Origin: Polychytrium aggregatum
Taxonomy: Eukaryota > Chytridiomycota > Chytridiomycetes > Polychytriales
Assembly (NCBI RefSeq): GCF_025602895.1
Contig: NW_026516233.1
Coordinates: 62,001-126,000, forward strand
Length of the DNA stretch: 64,000 nucleotides
Direction: 5' to 3'
The notes under the pieces are model-generated. The model searched no databases, was not told where the DNA came from, and saw only the letters and a program-made list of their open reading frames with translations. Shown piece after piece: positions 11,788 to 54,277 of the stretch (the first letter of the stretch is position 1; each line of letters starts with the position of its first letter). The position numbers and the translations under genes are program-made.

Positions 11788-12122
11788 CACTATAAATTTT
11801 TCCGGCCCTCTCGCGGCTGCTCATCTCGGTCACCTGAAAGTCACGTTGGATGTGACGCAGCAAAGTTGGAATCCGGCCATGGTCTGTTGACGGCATTTGG
11901 TATCACCTTGAGCCGATTGACGGTGGTGGTGGGCAATTGGTGTGGAGGAATGACCAATTGTATCATTGTTGGAAGCTCCACTCCGATTGCGGACAAGAAC
12001 CACCACCGTCTGAATCTCTCTGGTTGGAAACCTAGTCAAGCGTGGCTGTGTGTCAGCGAGATGACATGATCGTTTGGCTATCAGGCAAGACTCACCTTGA
12101 CAAGATGTCTTCCCACGACTGA

Positions 12123-13070
12123 TTGAGCGAGCGATGCGTTTCTGGATCTGAATCAAGGACGCCACTGCGCAGTATCTCTGCCAGCCCAAAATGCGCTGGT
12201 TTTGAAGAGATTCTTTCTTCCCCAAGGGCAGAACCAGCCATCGCTGCTATTTTCTCGCCAGATGGCTCCCCGCAAGAGAAAGACACCACCCAGGCGACCA
12301 AGTGGATCCAGAGCACCCACAAGATCCTTGGTCTGCAGGACTGGATGAGTGCCACACCAAGTCCCAAGATCCTTGGGTTGGCTTCCTTCCTGCAATACAT
12401 TCGCCATGTGTTCGATGGAGACATGCTGGACAAACAGCTGTACTTCAGCCTGACCCGGCGACGGCGATTCAAGCGACTCGATCTCCACAGCAAGCGACAG
12501 CGCACCGTCCACGAGATGTGCAAGCAAGTCATCGACCAGGCACCAAAGGAGACCGAAGTGGTGATTGCCTTTGGGAATGCATCCTGGAAGCAAGGGAAGG
12601 GATACGCATCCAGTCCCAGGAGACTCAGGTTCGCCAAGTACTTTGAGCAATTCCACCACCACCAGAGACGCCCACCAGACCGATCCGTCTCCAAGATCCA
12701 TGTGTGCTCGGTGAACGAGTTCAACACGTCCCAGGTGTGCTCACATTGTCGGGAAGCCAAGCGACTCGAGAAGGTCGAGTATCTTGATATCGAGAAACCA
12801 CACTTTGTCCGGAGCTGTGCAAGCTGCCATACGCTGTGGGATCGAGACGTCAATGTAGCCAGGAACATGATCTCAGTATGCCAGTCGATCATCGCCACAG
12901 GAGATCGACCGGGTGTATTCAAGACTGTGCTTCCCAAACCAACGAAATCAAGGAGATTGCCGACGAAGACAGGAGTGCAATGCCATGGCCTGCCCGCTGG
13001 GCCTACAGTCAGTCAGCGGGCTTCAGAAGCCAGGAAGGATCTGTCCCGTTTCTTTCTGGATAGACTGTAA
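12123..13070 (+). pseudogene. Fanzor (eukaryotic TnpB homologue), N-terminally truncated, copy A
   Basis: Open frame directly after a TGA at 12120; first in-frame ATG only at 12345. Fanzors are OMEGA-type RNA-guided DNA nucleases carried by eukaryotic transposons. Numbering codons from 12123: helical segment RFKRLDLHSKRQRTVHEM (116-132); RuvC-II region VVIAFGNASW (146-155), which lacks a glutamate at the usual place; target-nucleic-acid-binding zinc ribbon NTSQVCSHC (201-209) and CASC (232-235); RuvC-III WDRDVNVARN (239-248) with the catalytic Asp. This matches the published Fanzor signature [TS][TS]xxC4...RD. The N-terminal recognition/wedge part and RuvC-I Asp are not found in any frame of the 335 bp upstream. 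The tail after RuvC-III differs in frame from copy B. Probably inactive as a nuclease. Confidence 0.85.
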
Positions 13071-13194
13071 GTATCTTGCACTGTTCCTTGAGTATGTCGA
13101 CAGTGGATGCCGGGTCGCCCATATTCTGGGCAGTCCACTTCGGGGTTGCCATCCCTCTTGGGATGGTCGATGGGAGATGTTTGACTCCCTTGCA

Positions 13195-13196
<2 letters not shown>

Positions 13197-13253
<57 letters not shown>
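13197..13253. repeat. (GT)n microsatellite inside Fanzor element A
   Basis: About 28 GT units between the end of the Fanzor frame and the hairpin block. Copy B has an interrupted CA-rich version at the equivalent place, so the tract expanded or was broken after the copies separated. Confidence 0.95.
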
Positions 13254-13254
<1 letters not shown>

Positions 13255-13384
13255 CGGCGAGAGGCTTCTCGCCTTCCCTCGGGGGTCTCTCGCCAGAGAC
13301 TGCTCTTCTCGCCGACCGAGGTGGCTCCGAGAGCGCGTTTTTTCGTTCTCGCTGATTTTATTAACAAGAAATTTTTTCATAGTG
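13254..13384 (+). ncRNA. Candidate Fanzor guide (omega) RNA scaffold, copy A
   Basis: In TnpB and Fanzor loci the guide RNA scaffold sits at the right end of the element and its guide comes from the flanking DNA. Here the right-end block is GC-rich and foldable: GGCGAG(AGGCTT)CTCGCC at 13256-13273, GTCTCT(CGCC)AGAGAC at 13285-13300, and a longer arm GCTCT/AGAGC spanning 13302-13334. The motif CTCGCC recurs. The first about 90 bases are identical in copy B although the coding frame differs by about 3 percent, which argues for selection or gene conversion. A TTTTTT run follows at 13338. Folds were drawn by eye; transcription is not shown. Confidence 0.5.
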
Positions 13385-16000: not shown

Positions 16001-17076
16001 AGTCACCTTGGCTCCAGCGCCTGGATCTGGATCCTCGAGTGTTTCCCGGATCTAGGGCTCTGTACAAGTGCTGGTGAATGTTCTCCAGAGCGCCGCGTCG
16101 TCCTCCAAGTTATATCCCTATATCGTCTTGCCGCATGAACTAGCTTTCCCGTGACTCACTTGCATTGACTCGCCATTCTCGATTCATTTGCACTGACCGA
16201 CCTTCATTGACTCACTGATTCATCAACCTGGACATCCATGGCTTCATCGTGTACATTACCCTCGTCATCGATTGCATTTATTGCGCTCCCTCATTTCCGA
16301 TACGCCCCCGCGATAGCAAACCCGCCTCTGCTCTCTCGTTACCATATCCTTTTTTTTTTTCTTTGGTATTTCCACCAGTCCATACCGCCAGTGCGGTGAC
16401 CCCCCCCCAGACAGTCTCCGTTCCTCCTGTTGCAATCATGGCCTGAAGCCCGATGATCTGCGGACCGCATGGTCTCAGTCGTACGACTGTTTCCTGTCTC
16501 GGTTGGAAATCAAAGTTTTGGTGTGGGTTTGGGAGGGGGGAGGAGCAATGCTCTTGAATACACCCGGTCGATCTCCTGTGGCGACGATCGAGTGGCATAC
16601 CGAAATCATGTTCCGCGATGTGGGAGTGCGGTGCATGCATTCGATATGTTATGGGTCTCGAGCCCACAGCCGATGCATTCTGCTTGGAGCAACCGTAGGC
16701 GTCTTGGTGATGTCGCTGTCGTGGAGTCAGACAGGACTATGTGAGCTTGATGACGGATCCCATTGCAGGTCAACACAAGTTCCTCCACGACAGCCACACC
16801 CCAAGCGACGGGCCGGATTGATACGGTTCATTTCCTGCGCTCCGCTTCACATCCTCGTGTCGTATGGCCCACAGGATCACTGTCGCATGAACGATACTGG
16901 TGTATATTACCGCCAACTACACATGTAGCAGAGGCCCACAAATAGGACCATCATCAACAGCGCAAGACGCGGAATCGATCGCAGAGACTGTCGGTGCTCC
17001 GGAAGAGCCGAATGCATCGTAGGTACGGCTGACCAGAAGGAGGTGCCGCGCGATGGGGTGAAGGCGCCTGGATCGT
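16001..17076. other. Intergenic region between arrestin-like gene and REI1, with a Fanzor relic
   Basis: Contains AT-rich arrestin 3' UTR, homopolymer T and C runs around 16350-16410, and a degenerate Fanzor fragment on the minus strand (listed separately). No intact gene. Confidence 0.55.
16550..16680 (-). pseudogene. Degenerate Fanzor fragment (RuvC-III end)
   Basis: On the minus strand this reads RNMISVCHSIVATGDRPGVF, matching RNMISVCQSIIATGDRPGVF of copies A and B. Upstream, the WDRD region is recognisable at nucleotide level (CTGTGGGxTCGAGAC) but is broken by an insertion of about 35 bp, and the frame after the match diverges. It is clearly older than copies A and B. The TIR-like ends are not visible around it. 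Confidence 0.8.
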
Positions 17077-19514: not shown

Positions 19515-19586
19515 GCCCTTATAGCACAGTGGTAGTGCGTCAGTCTTGTAAACTGAAGGTCCCGTGTTCAATCCACGGTGGGGGCA
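19515..19586 (+). tRNA. tRNA-Thr (anticodon TGT)
   Basis: 72-nt cloverleaf: acceptor GCCCTTA/TGGGGGC, D stem GCAC/GTGC, anticodon stem TCAGT/ACTGA with loop CTTGTAA, T arm CCGTG-TTCAATC-CACGG, discriminator A. No intron. Confidence 0.95.
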
Positions 19587-19595
19587 CAGCTTGCT

Positions 19596-19667
19596 GCCTT
19601 CTTAGCACAGTGGTAGTGCGTCTGCCTCGTAAGCAGAAGGTCGCGTGTTCGATCCACGCAGGAGGCA
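19596..19667 (+). tRNA. tRNA-Thr (anticodon CGT)
   Basis: 72-nt cloverleaf nine bases after the UGU isoacceptor: acceptor GCCTTCT/AGGAGGC, D stem GCAC/GTGC, anticodon loop CTCGTAA, T arm GCGTG-TTCGATC-CACGC. Identical to the minus-strand gene at 32173-32244. Confidence 0.95.
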
Positions 19668-19869
19668 CTTGAGGTGGTACATTTTGACTCGAATTTTGCA
19701 TCGGTTTGCGGATGTTTTCTGCTCGCTGGCTCCTTTGCTTGCGTACTGAGAAAGCGACAAAACCCGAAGAATAGCATGCGATTTCGATCCTCAGTCCCCA
19801 CTCCGGTTGTCGCAGGTTCGGGCGGCTCCGAAGGTCAGTGATGGAAAATGACTGTGAGTCAAAACACTG

Positions 19870-19942
19870 CGAGCGAGACAGGGTTCGAACCTGCGACCTT
19901 CTGATCCGAAGTCAGACGATCTATCCACTGATCTACACGCCC
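19870..19942 (-). tRNA. tRNA-Arg (anticodon TCG)
   Basis: Reverse complement is base-for-base the same 73-nt gene as 1667-1739, including the U-U mismatch in the acceptor stem. Confidence 0.95.
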
Positions 19943-29790: not shown

Positions 29791-29922
29791 CACTATGAAA
29801 AAATTTTTTGTTAAAAAAATGAGCGAGAACGAAAAAACGCGCTCTCGGAGCCACCTCGGTCGGCGAGAAGAGCAGTCTCTGGCGAGAGACCCCCGAGGGA
29901 AGGCGAGAAGCCTCTCGCCGTC
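29791..29922 (-). ncRNA. Candidate Fanzor guide (omega) RNA scaffold, copy B
   Basis: Reverse complement carries the same hairpins as copy A (GGCGAG/CTCGCC, GTCTCT/AGAGAC, GCTCT/AGAGC), identical for about 90 bases, then an A/T-rich end with small differences. If it behaves like TnpB/Fanzor guide RNAs, the guide would be read from bases 29790 downward, inside the TRS130 leader. Confidence 0.5.
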
Positions 29923-31055
29923 ACACACACACACTTTGCACACACACACACACACATCCGCACACACACACTTTGCACAAGGGAGTCAAACACCTCCCAT
30001 CGACCATCCCAAGAGGGATGGCAACCCCGAAGTGGACTGCCCAGAATATGGGCGACCCGGCATCCACTGTCGACATACTCAAGGAACAGTGCGATATACT
30101 TACAGTCTATCCAGAAAGAAACGGGACAGTCACTTTCTGGCTTCAGATATCTGAAGCCCGCTGACTGACTTGTAGGCCCAGCGGGTAGGCCATGGCATTG
30201 CACTCCTGTCTTCGTTGGCAATCGAGTGGTTTTGGTTGGTTTCGGGAGCACAGTCTTGAATACACCCGGTCGATCTCCTGTGGCGATGATCGACTGGCAT
30301 ACCGAGATCATGTTCCTGGCTGCATTGACGTCTCGACCCCACAGCGTATGGCAGCTTGCACAGCTCCGTACAAAGTGGGGTTTCTCGATATCAAGATGCT
30401 CGGGTGACTCAAGTCGCTTGAATTCCCGACAATGTGAGCACACCTGGGATGTGTTGAACTCGTTCACCGAGTACACATGGATCTTGGAGACGGATCGGTC
30501 TGGTGGGCGTCTCTGGTGATGGTGGAATTGCTCAAAGTACTTGGCGAACCTGAGTCTCCTGGGACTGGAAGCATATCCCTTCCCCTGTTTCCAGGATGCA
30601 TTCCCAAAGGCAATCACCACTTCGGTCTCCTTTGGTGCCTGGTCGATGACTTGCTTGCACATCTCGTGGACGGTGCGCTGTCGCTTGCTGTGGAGATCGA
30701 GTCGCTTGAATCGCCGTCGCCGGGTCAGGCTGAAGTACAGCTGTTTGTCCAGCATGTCTCCATCGAACACATGGCGAATGTATTGCAGGAAGGAAGCCAA
30801 CCCAGGGATCTTGGGACTTGGTGTGGCACTCATCCAGTCCTGCAGATCAAGGATCTTGTGGGTGCTCTGGATCCACTTGGTCGCCTGGGTGGTGTCTTTC
30901 TCTTGCGGGGAGCCATCTGGCGAGAAAATAGCAGCGATGGCTGGTTCTGCCCTTGGGGAAGAAAGAATCTCTTCAAAACCAGCGCATTTTGGGCTGGCAG
31001 AGATACTGCGCAGTGGCGTCCTTGATTCAGATCCAGAAACGCATCGCTCGCTCAA
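29811..31055 (-). pseudogene. Fanzor (eukaryotic TnpB homologue), N-terminally truncated, copy B
   Basis: Same frame as copy A, following the same TGA; first in-frame ATG at 30833. Zinc ribbon NTSQVCSHC and CASC are intact and RuvC-III reads WGRDVNAARN (catalytic RD kept; W-G in place of W-D). Differences from copy A include G-to-D and L-to-P in the helical region, C-to-Y before the zinc ribbon and a changed spacer (FKRLESPEHLD). The frame runs on through the (CA)-rich tract and the hairpin block almost to the right end, which is very unlikely to be real protein. As in copy A, no RuvC-I motif is present. Transcription would run toward TRS130. Confidence 0.85.
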
Positions 31056-31428
31056 TCAGTCGTGGGAAGACATCTTGTCAAGGTGAGTCTTGCCTGATAG
31101 CCAAACGATCATGTCATCTCGCTGACACACAGCCACGCTTGACTAGGTTTCCAACCAGAGAGATTCAGACGGTGGTGGTTCTTGTCCGCAATCGGAGTGG
31201 AGCTTCCAACAATGATACAATTGGTCATTCCTCCACACCAATTGCCCACCACCACCGTCAATCGGCTCAAGGTGATACCAAATGCCGTCAACAGACCATG
31301 GCCGGATTCCAACTTTGCTGCGTCACATCCAACGTGACTTTCAGGTGACCGAGATGAGCAGCCGCGAGGGGCCGGAAAAATTGATAGTGTGATCGGTTCG
31401 ATCTCGCTTCCCGATCGTCCTCCGTACC

Positions 31429-31983: not shown

Positions 31984-32764
31984 CGCCCCCGGCGATACCC
32001 ACCGCTCGTCAGGACCACCGGCCAACAATAAACCACACAATGACCTGTACAAAAGCAGAGCCACCGGCCGTACAAGTTGTGGCTGCTCGACGGCGGTCGC
32101 TTTACTGCATTCCCGACATGGCAAAAGCTCGATGGCGATGTGCAGAAATCGGGAGCCAAAAAGATTCCGAGTTGCCTCCTGCGTGGATCGAACACGCGAC
32201 CTTCTGCTTACGAGGCAGACGCACTACCACTGTGCTAAGAAGGCTTGACGAAATTCCCTCAATGCCCTATATGACCGTAGTGATCCCATGGACCCACCTC
32301 CTTCCCACCATCGCTCAACCGCCGTTCGCATATCGACCACAGATCGGTCACATATCGACCATAGATCGGCCATAGATCGGTCAGTCATTGTTCATCCATT
32401 TGCCTATCATTCGCCCAAGCACATTCCCAGGCCAAACAGTGCATATTCAGGTGGCTCGTTCGTGGCGTTGGCATGATCTATGGGAGGAGGGCACCACCTG
32501 GTGCATCCGTCGCGTCTTGACTTGCTCGAAAGTGCTGTATTTCATCATCAACAAAGACACGCGCTCACGGCCGGCGATCACACCCGAAGAAGTTAATCCA
32601 AGAAGAACAAAGCCGATCCGGGGGTGTGAAGATGTGCTCCACTCAGAGTCGAACTGGCGCTGGACGAACTCGGATGCAGACTGCCCTTGGCACCTCGAGT
32701 TCATGAGTTGTGGACATTATCCAGGCTGCACGGCGGGCTTTGCTGTCGAGCTGCCCAGGAACAG
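31984..32764. other. Intergenic region with tRNA-Thr
   Basis: Convergent 3' ends of HAM1 and the penta-EF-hand gene. Contains tRNA-Thr and a short tandem of ATATCGACCATAGATCGG-like units at 32328-32385. No other gene supported. Confidence 0.6.
32173..32244 (-). tRNA. tRNA-Thr (anticodon CGT)
   Basis: Reverse complement is identical to the 72-nt gene at 19596-19667; anticodon loop CTCGTAA. Confidence 0.95.
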
Positions 32765-53474: not shown

Positions 53475-54277
53475 TGGGTCTGATAACCCGGCAGCGACTC
53501 GAGACCGCCCTCGACACCGCCGTTGTCACTGCCGTTCCCTGCAGTGAATCCCTTTCGTCATCCACAGCATCAGCGAGTCGACCCGTTAACCCATAGAGCA
53601 CACCAATAGAGCCGATAGACCATACCACAGCCAGCGCCGGAACCAGAACGGAGTGTGCCAGAGTGGGCAAAATTGAGGCGAGCAAAAAGCATTCGAGCGA
53701 GACAGGGTTCGAACCTGCGACCTTCTGATCCGAAGTCAGACGATCTATCCACTGATCTACACGCCCTTGTTGAGTCGCTCCACATTTGCATATATAATCC
53801 TACAACACACCTCGGATCGATTTTTGGCATTTGCACCCGCAAGACGAGTCGACACCCACACCGCAGCCCCGGCGTCGCCCGGTCGCAATCCAGCGGCACA
53901 CCAGCTGCCCCGCCGATGTTCCAGCCCCACGCCATGACTCTGGGCCGCCGGTCTTCTGGTGTGTTCCAGCATCTTCCAGCCACACCCAGAGACACGTGTC
54001 AGGCGAGCCGCTGGCACGCCCAGTCACATCCCGAATCGCCGAGAAGCACCCCCCCCCGGCGATGACAGCATATAGGAGGCGGGCGACTCCCCTCCAACGC
54101 CCCTGGCATCGAGACGAATCTCTGCTCTCTGCGTTTTCTGCATCCCGCATCCGCGCTCGCTTTGGTCGCCCGTGTGGCCCACTCGTGTACATATACGACC
54201 GTCATCCGCAGCATCGTTCCTTTCGTTTTGGTTTTCCATCACACCCAACCAACTGTCCCAAACACACATACACCGCC
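53475..54277. other. Intergenic region between FAM72 and DnaJ gene
   Basis: FAM72 3' UTR, a tRNA-Arg gene on the minus strand, and the DnaJ promoter. No other gene supported. Confidence 0.6.
53694..53766 (-). tRNA. tRNA-Arg (anticodon TCG)
   Basis: Third identical copy of the 73-nt gene also at 1667-1739 and 19870-19942. Confidence 0.95.

Follow-up and report, generated by a model that had tools for sequence, protein, structure and literature searches.

In the stretch of Polychytrium aggregatum DNA that was analyzed (the window, 64,000 nucleotides), two copies, A and B, were found of a unit of about 1.6 kb, which is bounded by CACTA-type inverted repeats (CACTATSAA) and encloses the 3' part of a Fanzor1 gene. 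Copy B lies in inverted orientation and is 97% identical to copy A over 1210 nt within the window. For better orientation, the features of both copies are collected in Table 1. The window further holds six tRNA genes (three Arg-TCG, two Thr-CGT and one Thr-TGT) at 1667-1740, 19515-19668, 19869-19942, 32173-32244 and 53694-53766.

Table 1. Features of the two units in the window, with positions counted from its first nucleotide.
Feature	Position	Strand	Basis or remark
Copy A, 1597-bp non-autonomous CACTA-ended element with Fanzor1 C-terminal fragment	11788-13384	+	Unit repeats, deletion joint
Left CACTA terminus, copy A variant CACTATAAATTTTT	11788-11801	+	Terminus reading
Fossil of the 3' end of a mariner transposase ORF	12105-12145	+	89-95% to M2/M1 elements; about 50 bases in the unit
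315-codon open frame, 3' part of a Fanzor1 gene	12123-13070	+	RuvC-II region, alternative Glu, zinc ribbon, RuvC-III Asp
Native Fanzor start (MAPRKRKTPP...), frame 12127-12348	12262-12348	+	Out of frame past the joint, ends in a stop
Deletion joint, 8-bp microhomology CACCACCC	12284-12291	+	1.8-1.9 kb missing compared with the 3.4-kb parents
TNB/zinc-ribbon domain (PF07282)	12693-12869	+	Pfam profile match
Embedded right terminal repeat of a mariner-Fanzor element (TGTCCCGTTTCTTTCTGGATAGACTGTA)	13042-13069	+	M2-type
Right CACTA terminus AAATTTTTTCATAGTG	13369-13384	+	Reverse complement CACTATGAAAAAATTT
Copy B, identical type of deletion derivative	29791-31389	-	Same joint (30882-30900), same embedded mariner end (30101-30128)

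The 315-codon frame reads NTSQVCSHC...SCASC...WDRDVNVARN, lacks RuvC-I and the N-terminal part, and has its first Met at codon 75, with no earlier ATG. The first-pass annotation, made from the letters alone, had seen here a zinc-ribbon/RD frame inside a 1.6-kb unit with defined ends, and frame, motif and termini were all found as claimed. The profile search that it had proposed gave a significant match of the frame to PF07282 (Cas12f1-like_TNB) at residues 191-249, with 36.8 bits against a cut-off of 26.3 and an E value of 4.5e-9. Searched as a single sequence, the frame stayed far under the cut-offs of the NCBIfam TnpB/Cas12f models (E 1e-4 to 2e-3) and returned nothing significant among PDB chains (best E 0.056), and all seven homologues found came from P. 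aggregatum itself. The [TS][TS]xxC motif, the C4 zinc ribbon and RD are kept in both copies (copy B reads WGRD, with RD retained), whereas the RuvC-I Asp and the N-terminal half are missing from both. Since RuvC-I is deleted, neither copy A nor copy B encodes an RNA-guided nuclease, and copy A was ruled out as a working Fanzor on the same ground. From the earlier description of copy A as a Fanzor transposon, the C-terminal part of a Fanzor1 therefore remains, while the RNA-guided nuclease does not, as the unit is a deletion derivative. That it nevertheless represents an active Fanzor transposon with a nuclease protein is extremely improbable: the zinc ribbon, the alternative Glu and the RuvC-III Asp are retained, but an internal deletion has removed RuvC-I and about 600 N-terminal residues, D581 (numbering of the full-length element L039) is missing in all six independent deletion copies examined, copies A and B included, and the native ATG of copy A (12262) is not in phase with the Fanzor frame and runs into a stop at 12348.

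The deleted part is present elsewhere in the genome. The unit was aligned to 58 loci, 20 of which surround long Fanzor frames. In L040, L041, L043, L044 and L057, its bases 1-504 and 497-1597 are separated by an extra 1.8-1.9 kb, and the 8-base overlap of the two segments is the microhomology CACCACCC. These five regions, which correspond to four independent sites (L043 and L057 are one site), contain the full-length parents, namely elements of 3.36-3.46 kb with ends of the same kind as those of the unit. GIDPG (RuvC-I) and the zinc ribbon lie in one open frame of 768-977 codons in all five regions, in L044 as a single frame from MAPKRK via GIDPG to WDRD, and the four independent parents are free of stops and have intact D/E/D catalytic residues. 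A full-length relative with RuvC-I had been anticipated by the first-pass annotation, and the genome-wide search with the 1.6-kb unit that it had suggested did recover these 3.4-kb copies.

The derivative itself is far more abundant than its parents. The genome search with the unit gave 45 rows, five of which were short pieces, and among the best 40 of 1442 first-look candidates that were scored, 39 other long matches were found in the P. aggregatum genome at 91-96% identity. A 35-base pattern across the joint was present at 111 genome places with up to 3 mismatches, and the 22-mer of the right end at 121 when up to 2 mismatches were allowed (reversed control patterns: 0 in both cases), which are not haploid counts because the assembly contains both haplotypes of some regions. 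For instance, C32 mirrors C235, and copies A and B are present in both with near-identical flanks. Prior to counting, L003, L005, L057, C32:73189, C418 and C325 were removed as duplicates and stood for L001, L004, L043, L002, L008 and C223, respectively. At L007 (around 1495 and 3114), the left terminus is damaged, and the flanks carry an 11-base direct repeat, TTCGCCACATC, and no 3-bp duplication.

The intact relatives could be classified in more than one way. L039 fits the Fanzor1 motif D-X(125,275)-[TS][TS]-X-X-C4-X(5,50)-RD, as given in the available part of Bao and Jurka 2013, with D581, 197 residues, T779-S780-Q-V-C783, the C4, five residues and R818-D819, and D/E/D is retained in all seven M2 and parent elements projected on L039. 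A family profile was built from 10 rows (two M1, one M2, one parent, five metagenome relatives and the window frame; M1 and M2 are described below) and matched SpuFz1 in the PDB at E 3.1e-15, with the next best distinct sequence at 1.4e-5. Together with the PF07282 score above, this match bears out the Fanzor/TnpB signature claimed for the window frame. G728 and E776 are invariant across the 10 aligned rows, the alternative Glu is located 48 residues past the RuvC-II glycine, and D581, E776 and D819 (GIDPG region included) align with D383, E541 and D606, which the accessible text of Saito 2023 gives as the active site of SpuFz1. By motif, profile match and alignment, the full-length relatives can be assigned to Fanzor1, nearer to it than to Fanzor2/TnpB, and they are most likely omega-RNA-guided nucleases like SpuFz1. 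A homologue search with the complete M2 Fanzor (853 aa) gave none among the 8000 scored candidates that had the most words in common with it, and with residues 570-853 it gave 11, five of which are metagenomic Fanzors with 35-41% identity.

Across the genome, PF07282 was above the cut-off at all 150 places scored (the best 150 of 663 first-look candidates), and 58 of the 149 places counted had an open frame of at least 700 codons, with both haplotypes and Fanzor2-like genes contained in these figures. Such Fanzor2/TnpB-like genes occur at L010 (1486-2916, minus strand), L018 and L024 with matches to TNB and OrfB_IS605, the latter above cut-off in L010 only. L010 additionally has a weak MerR-like stretch, and its best PDB match is the TnpB-like protein L79 (E 3.9e-24), a mimivirus protein. 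Public P. aggregatum gene models also fuse Fanzor pieces to other domains, namely P0009 (with PF00646), P0010 (named male sterility protein) and P0016 (named kinase-like), and these fusions are either exonised insertions or annotation artefacts. In the window, an isolated Fanzor 3'-end fragment without recognised ends lies at 16478-16614 (minus strand) and is 78-80% identical to M2 and a CACTA parent.

The ends of the unit point to a different transposon superfamily than its cargo. The left terminus of most other copies begins CACTATCAATTTTT, of which copy A has a variant, and the first 13 bases of the right terminus, read as CACTATGAAAAAATTT, are those of the termini (CACTATGAAAAAAAAG) of resident elements with Transposase_21, the CACTA transposase domain. 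The shared 13 bases are CACTATGAAAAAA; further inward, the unit and the left ends read from the resident elements do not match. Of 17 independent sites for which both sides were read, 9 have exact 3-bp target duplications abutting the CACTA termini (TCG, CAT, TAT, TGG, CAT, TCA, TAA, TCG and TCA), compared to an expectation of approximately 1 in 64 per site. The other eight, including copy A (CAT/TCT) and copy B (TCA/CAT), lack them. The duplications and the common terminal bases substantiate the CACTA-like ends noted in the first-pass annotation. Its further proposal, that this host carries a Fanzor lineage with such ends, also proved right, as the 3.4-kb parents and the 1.6-kb derivatives share their CACTA termini.

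Transposase_21 was matched at 29 genome places, 28 of them above the cut-off. The terminus pattern CACTATSAAWWWWWWD occurs at 139 genome places (control: 2), many of which are right ends of the unit itself. Among the matches listed, CACTATGAAAAAAAAG lies 2290-2291 bp from the Transposase_21 match and in the right orientation at at least 18 of the 29 places and is absent at six, and five more are on contigs outside those listed. All four CACTATGAAAAAAAAG ends that were read directly are sharp, with differing flanks. The resident Transposase_21 was seen in open frames of 81-189 codons only, and the domain is absent from the unit frame and from the two parent frames scanned. Non-autonomous CACTA members usually have no transposase of their own, and the 1.6-kb unit is most likely mobilised in trans by the transposase of the resident CACTA elements, which have the same terminal bases. 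Plavaka (PF18759) was considered as a mobiliser as well and gave no match in P. aggregatum, but control genomes likewise gave none, so that this negative carries no weight.

The origin of the cargo is indicated by the other 15 long Fanzor regions, which belong to two Tc1/mariner subfamilies, M1, with 12 regions (about 3.75 kb for the most part; Fanzor of 790 aa), and M2, with three regions (about 3.79 kb; Fanzor of 854 aa). These carriers have a TA target, imperfect 28-base inverted repeats and a DDE_3 transposase (325-codon frame, E 3e-24) upstream of the Fanzor on the same strand. The transposase is shorter in L049, L051, L053 and L054, and both genes are in open frames in L039, L045, L046, L047 and L050. 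The unit contains the 3' end of such a transposase gene and an internal right repeat of the M2 type, after which the mariner homology stops, and this argues that its Fanzor came from a mariner element. Moreover, the transposase part of L050 (M1) is 96-97% identical to that of M2 (L039, L042 and L045) over about 1015 bp, whereas their Fanzors differ strongly (about 68% where alignable), and the two CACTA parents included in this comparison have Fanzors with 86-88% identity to M2. Near-identical transposases next to divergent Fanzors, and CACTA Fanzors close to M2, show that the nuclease has been exchanged between carriers. A mariner transposase, rather than a CACTA transposase, can be given next to no credence as the mover of the unit: one mariner repeat is present and mariner-Fanzor elements are abundant, but the left mariner repeat is missing, the termini are of the CACTA type, and the duplications are of 3 bp and not TA. 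In a search for the empty CACTA site prior to capture, none was found with T or A before TA, and one C-TA variant was present at C399.

Two smaller remnants of mariner elements were also noticed. The first, in the window at 1337-1424 and 1922-1995, is decayed and combines a left repeat of the mariner type (76-83%) with a 3' fragment of M1 (85%); it may be a small derivative of a mariner-Fanzor element. The second, L031 (1230-1290), has a mariner-like left repeat and, a short distance after it, the mariner-like stretch CCCCGTTTTT beside a Fanzor fragment and is probably a strongly shortened mariner derivative. L031 was rejected as an un-inserted version of the L050 site, given the mariner-like left repeat just upstream, and was not counted.

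The mariner carriers show a sequence preference at one side. T precedes TA in all 15 carriers read, and for the exact 28-base left repeat genome-wide, T precedes 172 of 178 places and another base the remaining 6, compared to a background of 195 T among 1340 TA in the window. The bases downstream of the right repeat vary among the 14 carriers whose right end could be read. The M2 element L045 adjoins sequence common to L010-type Fanzor2/TnpB-like loci, and eight of these loci, which are free of the insertion, already carry T and TA to the left of it. To the right they show no match to L045 and hence do not amount to a full empty site. According to the accessible text of Saito 2023, a CA is conserved upstream of the SPu-1 left repeat, and the TAM required by SpuFz1 is CATA. 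This parallel suggests that the Fanzors of the mariner carriers may use a TTA TAM, and a one-sided preference of the transposase is a possible alternative.

Some hints of an omega-RNA were obtained from the M1 elements. In the last 64 codons of the M1 Fanzors, synonymous divergence falls to 0.019 from a mean of 0.095, a value as low as in 1 of 661 other windows, and the 3' 150 nt of M1 fold somewhat better than shuffles (z -2.47, compared to 0.08 to -0.92 for the other four sequences folded). M2 and the parents show a weak fall in synonymous divergence at the end of the Fanzor gene. Taken together, constraint and fold are suggestive at most of an omega-RNA at the end of the M1 Fanzor ORF. The unit, which keeps the Fanzor 3' end and the mariner right repeat, could be a ghost locus whose omega-RNA guides Fanzors made elsewhere. 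There is a precedent in Spizellomyces punctatus, for which the available part of Saito 2023 describes 134 Fz-less ghost loci and ghost omega-RNAs of four loci that are active in human cells. For the unit, however, we regard this as rather unlikely. Codons 41-80 of the M1 Fanzors reach a similarly low value (0.020). The 3' untranslated part shows no added conservation in M1 (0.046), and among seven segments compared in the CACTA elements it varies most (0.085 in deletion copies, 0.155 in parents). The predicted RNA folds of the two ends of the unit are ordinary (z 0.08 and -0.72). Because element sequence directly follows the embedded mariner repeat, the guide would be near-identical in all copies, and no T-TA-adjacent target matching such a guide was found in the search.

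The dN/dS values (ratio of means) were 0.29 for the M1 Fanzor (66 pairs of 12 copies), 0.32 for the M2 Fanzor (3 pairs; C-terminal part 0.46), 0.28 for the parents (6 pairs of 4 copies) and 0.20 for the transposase (105 pairs of 15 copies), and none of the M1, M2, parent, transposase or deletion-copy sequences used had a stop. L049, with an unreadable right end, was excluded from the M1 element alignment and included in the 12-copy set. The deletion copies gave 0.26 (15 pairs of 6 copies), which is unexpected for a dead fragment, and all six independent copies are free of stops over about 221 codons. In a neutral simulation with 15 changes per copy, the probability of no stop was 0.52 per copy and approximately 0.02 for six independent copies, so plain neutral decay fits poorly. 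These values would be expected if the truncated C-terminal frame were under selection as a functional protein, such as a repressor of Fanzor or of transposition, and the public model P0005 can be read as an upstream exon joined in frame. However, codon positions 1 and 2 of the deletion copies (0.032 and 0.030) diverge like their non-coding parts (0.018-0.032), and higher values were obtained for position 3 (0.081) and for the untranslated region at the Fanzor 3' end (0.085). This excess is found where the mariner carriers are homologous. With this comparison within the same copies, a functional truncated protein is not our main reading of the low dN/dS and is very unlikely; the pattern looks like an import of older, selected variation by gene conversion, not like purging. 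It should be considered that constraint on the CACTA ends could lower the non-coding divergence used for comparison.

An exchange between copies is also suggested by haplotype pairs. The two loci of each of three pairs have the same insertion site, and their flanks are 98.6-100% identical (above 99% in most pieces, repeats within one flank excepted). Within the element, the pairs differ at 40 of 1554, 9 of 1598 and 88 of 3428 sites, and at 27, 5 and 54 of these sites, respectively, both alleles were found in other copies. In the search with the joint region, five of 40 places match from the joint onward only and are thus without this joint, yet they are 95% identical to copy A and as near to it as other deletion copies. 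Gene conversion between copies would explain the patchwork, the divergence pattern and the places without the joint alike, although the haplotype patchwork could partly be caused by the assembly mixing repeats.

In summary, the unit is very probably a CACTA (EnSpm/CMC) transposon of the non-autonomous type, and its cargo is the degraded 3' part of a Fanzor1 gene that was borne by a Tc1/mariner element. The order of events may have been as follows. A mariner element with a DDE transposase and a Fanzor1, of a kind still found in many copies, would have become embedded in a CACTA element, with loss of the left mariner repeat and of almost the whole mariner transposase gene. The resulting 3.4-kb composite would then have spread by its CACTA ends, which placed the Fanzor gene in a second transposon superfamily. 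An internal microhomology deletion would subsequently have taken out RuvC-I and most of the Fanzor, and the 1.6-kb derivative would have reached approximately 100 places, most likely via a resident CACTA transposase in trans. Finally, the copies would have exchanged sequence by gene conversion. That RNA-guided cutting by intact Fanzors drives both the T-TA signature of the mariner carriers and the element-confined conversion, so that the CACTA derivatives profit from a nuclease that they no longer encode, is an unlikely but conceivable extension of this account.

The new part here is the change of carrier. The capture can be seen along with the fossil that it left, namely the transposase tail and the right repeat. 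Fanzor1 genes are described from Helitron, IS4-like, Sola and MuDR superfamilies in the available part of Bao and Jurka 2013; its abstract does not list CACTA among the superfamilies, and its accessible text mentions neither EnSpm nor CACTA. Yoon 2023 likewise has no occurrence of EnSpm, CACTA, Polychytrium or chytrid. Neither a Fanzor in a CACTA carrier nor a paper on Polychytrium aggregatum together with transposable elements was found in the literature searched, so that CACTA is an addition to the Fanzor1 carriers found listed there. The role of Fanzors for their carrier transposons is treated as open in the accessible text of Saito 2023. With at least 150 TNB-domain matches in one genome, mariner elements with transposase and Fanzor, CACTA elements with Fanzor and derivatives without it form a natural comparison set, in which carriers that have the nuclease can be set against those that lack it with respect to copy number, target motif and conversion.

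CACTA/EnSpm (CMC) transposons are characterized by CACTA termini, 3-bp duplications, Transposase_21 and non-autonomous deletion derivatives. The unit resembles them in its termini, its duplications and its nature as a non-autonomous deletion derivative, and it differs in that the cargo is a Fanzor1 gene or its remnant, with no transposase inside. M1 and M2 are of the known kind of mariner elements with transposase, Fanzor1 and TA duplications, whereas the window units are a CACTA-carried branch that keeps only the 3' part of such an element and lacks the two terminal mariner repeats and the TA duplication. A close known system is SPu-1/SpuFz1 of Spizellomyces punctatus, as far as covered by the available parts of Bao and Jurka 2013 and Saito 2023. 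It shares with the elements described here a chytrid Fanzor1 with RuvC, alternative Glu, zinc ribbon and RD as well as many partial or Fz-less relatives, and with the mariner carriers the TA duplication and a conserved motif directly before the left repeat (CA in SPu-1, T in these carriers). However, the accessible text of Saito 2023 gives no transposase between the SPu-1 repeats, whereas the mariner carriers here encode one, and the window lineage is distinguished by its CACTA ends, its 3-bp duplications and the shortening of copies A and B. Finally, like the Helitron, IS4-like, Sola and MuDR families in the available part of Bao and Jurka 2013, some of which are without their own transposase, the lineage described here is a DNA transposon that carries a Fanzor1.
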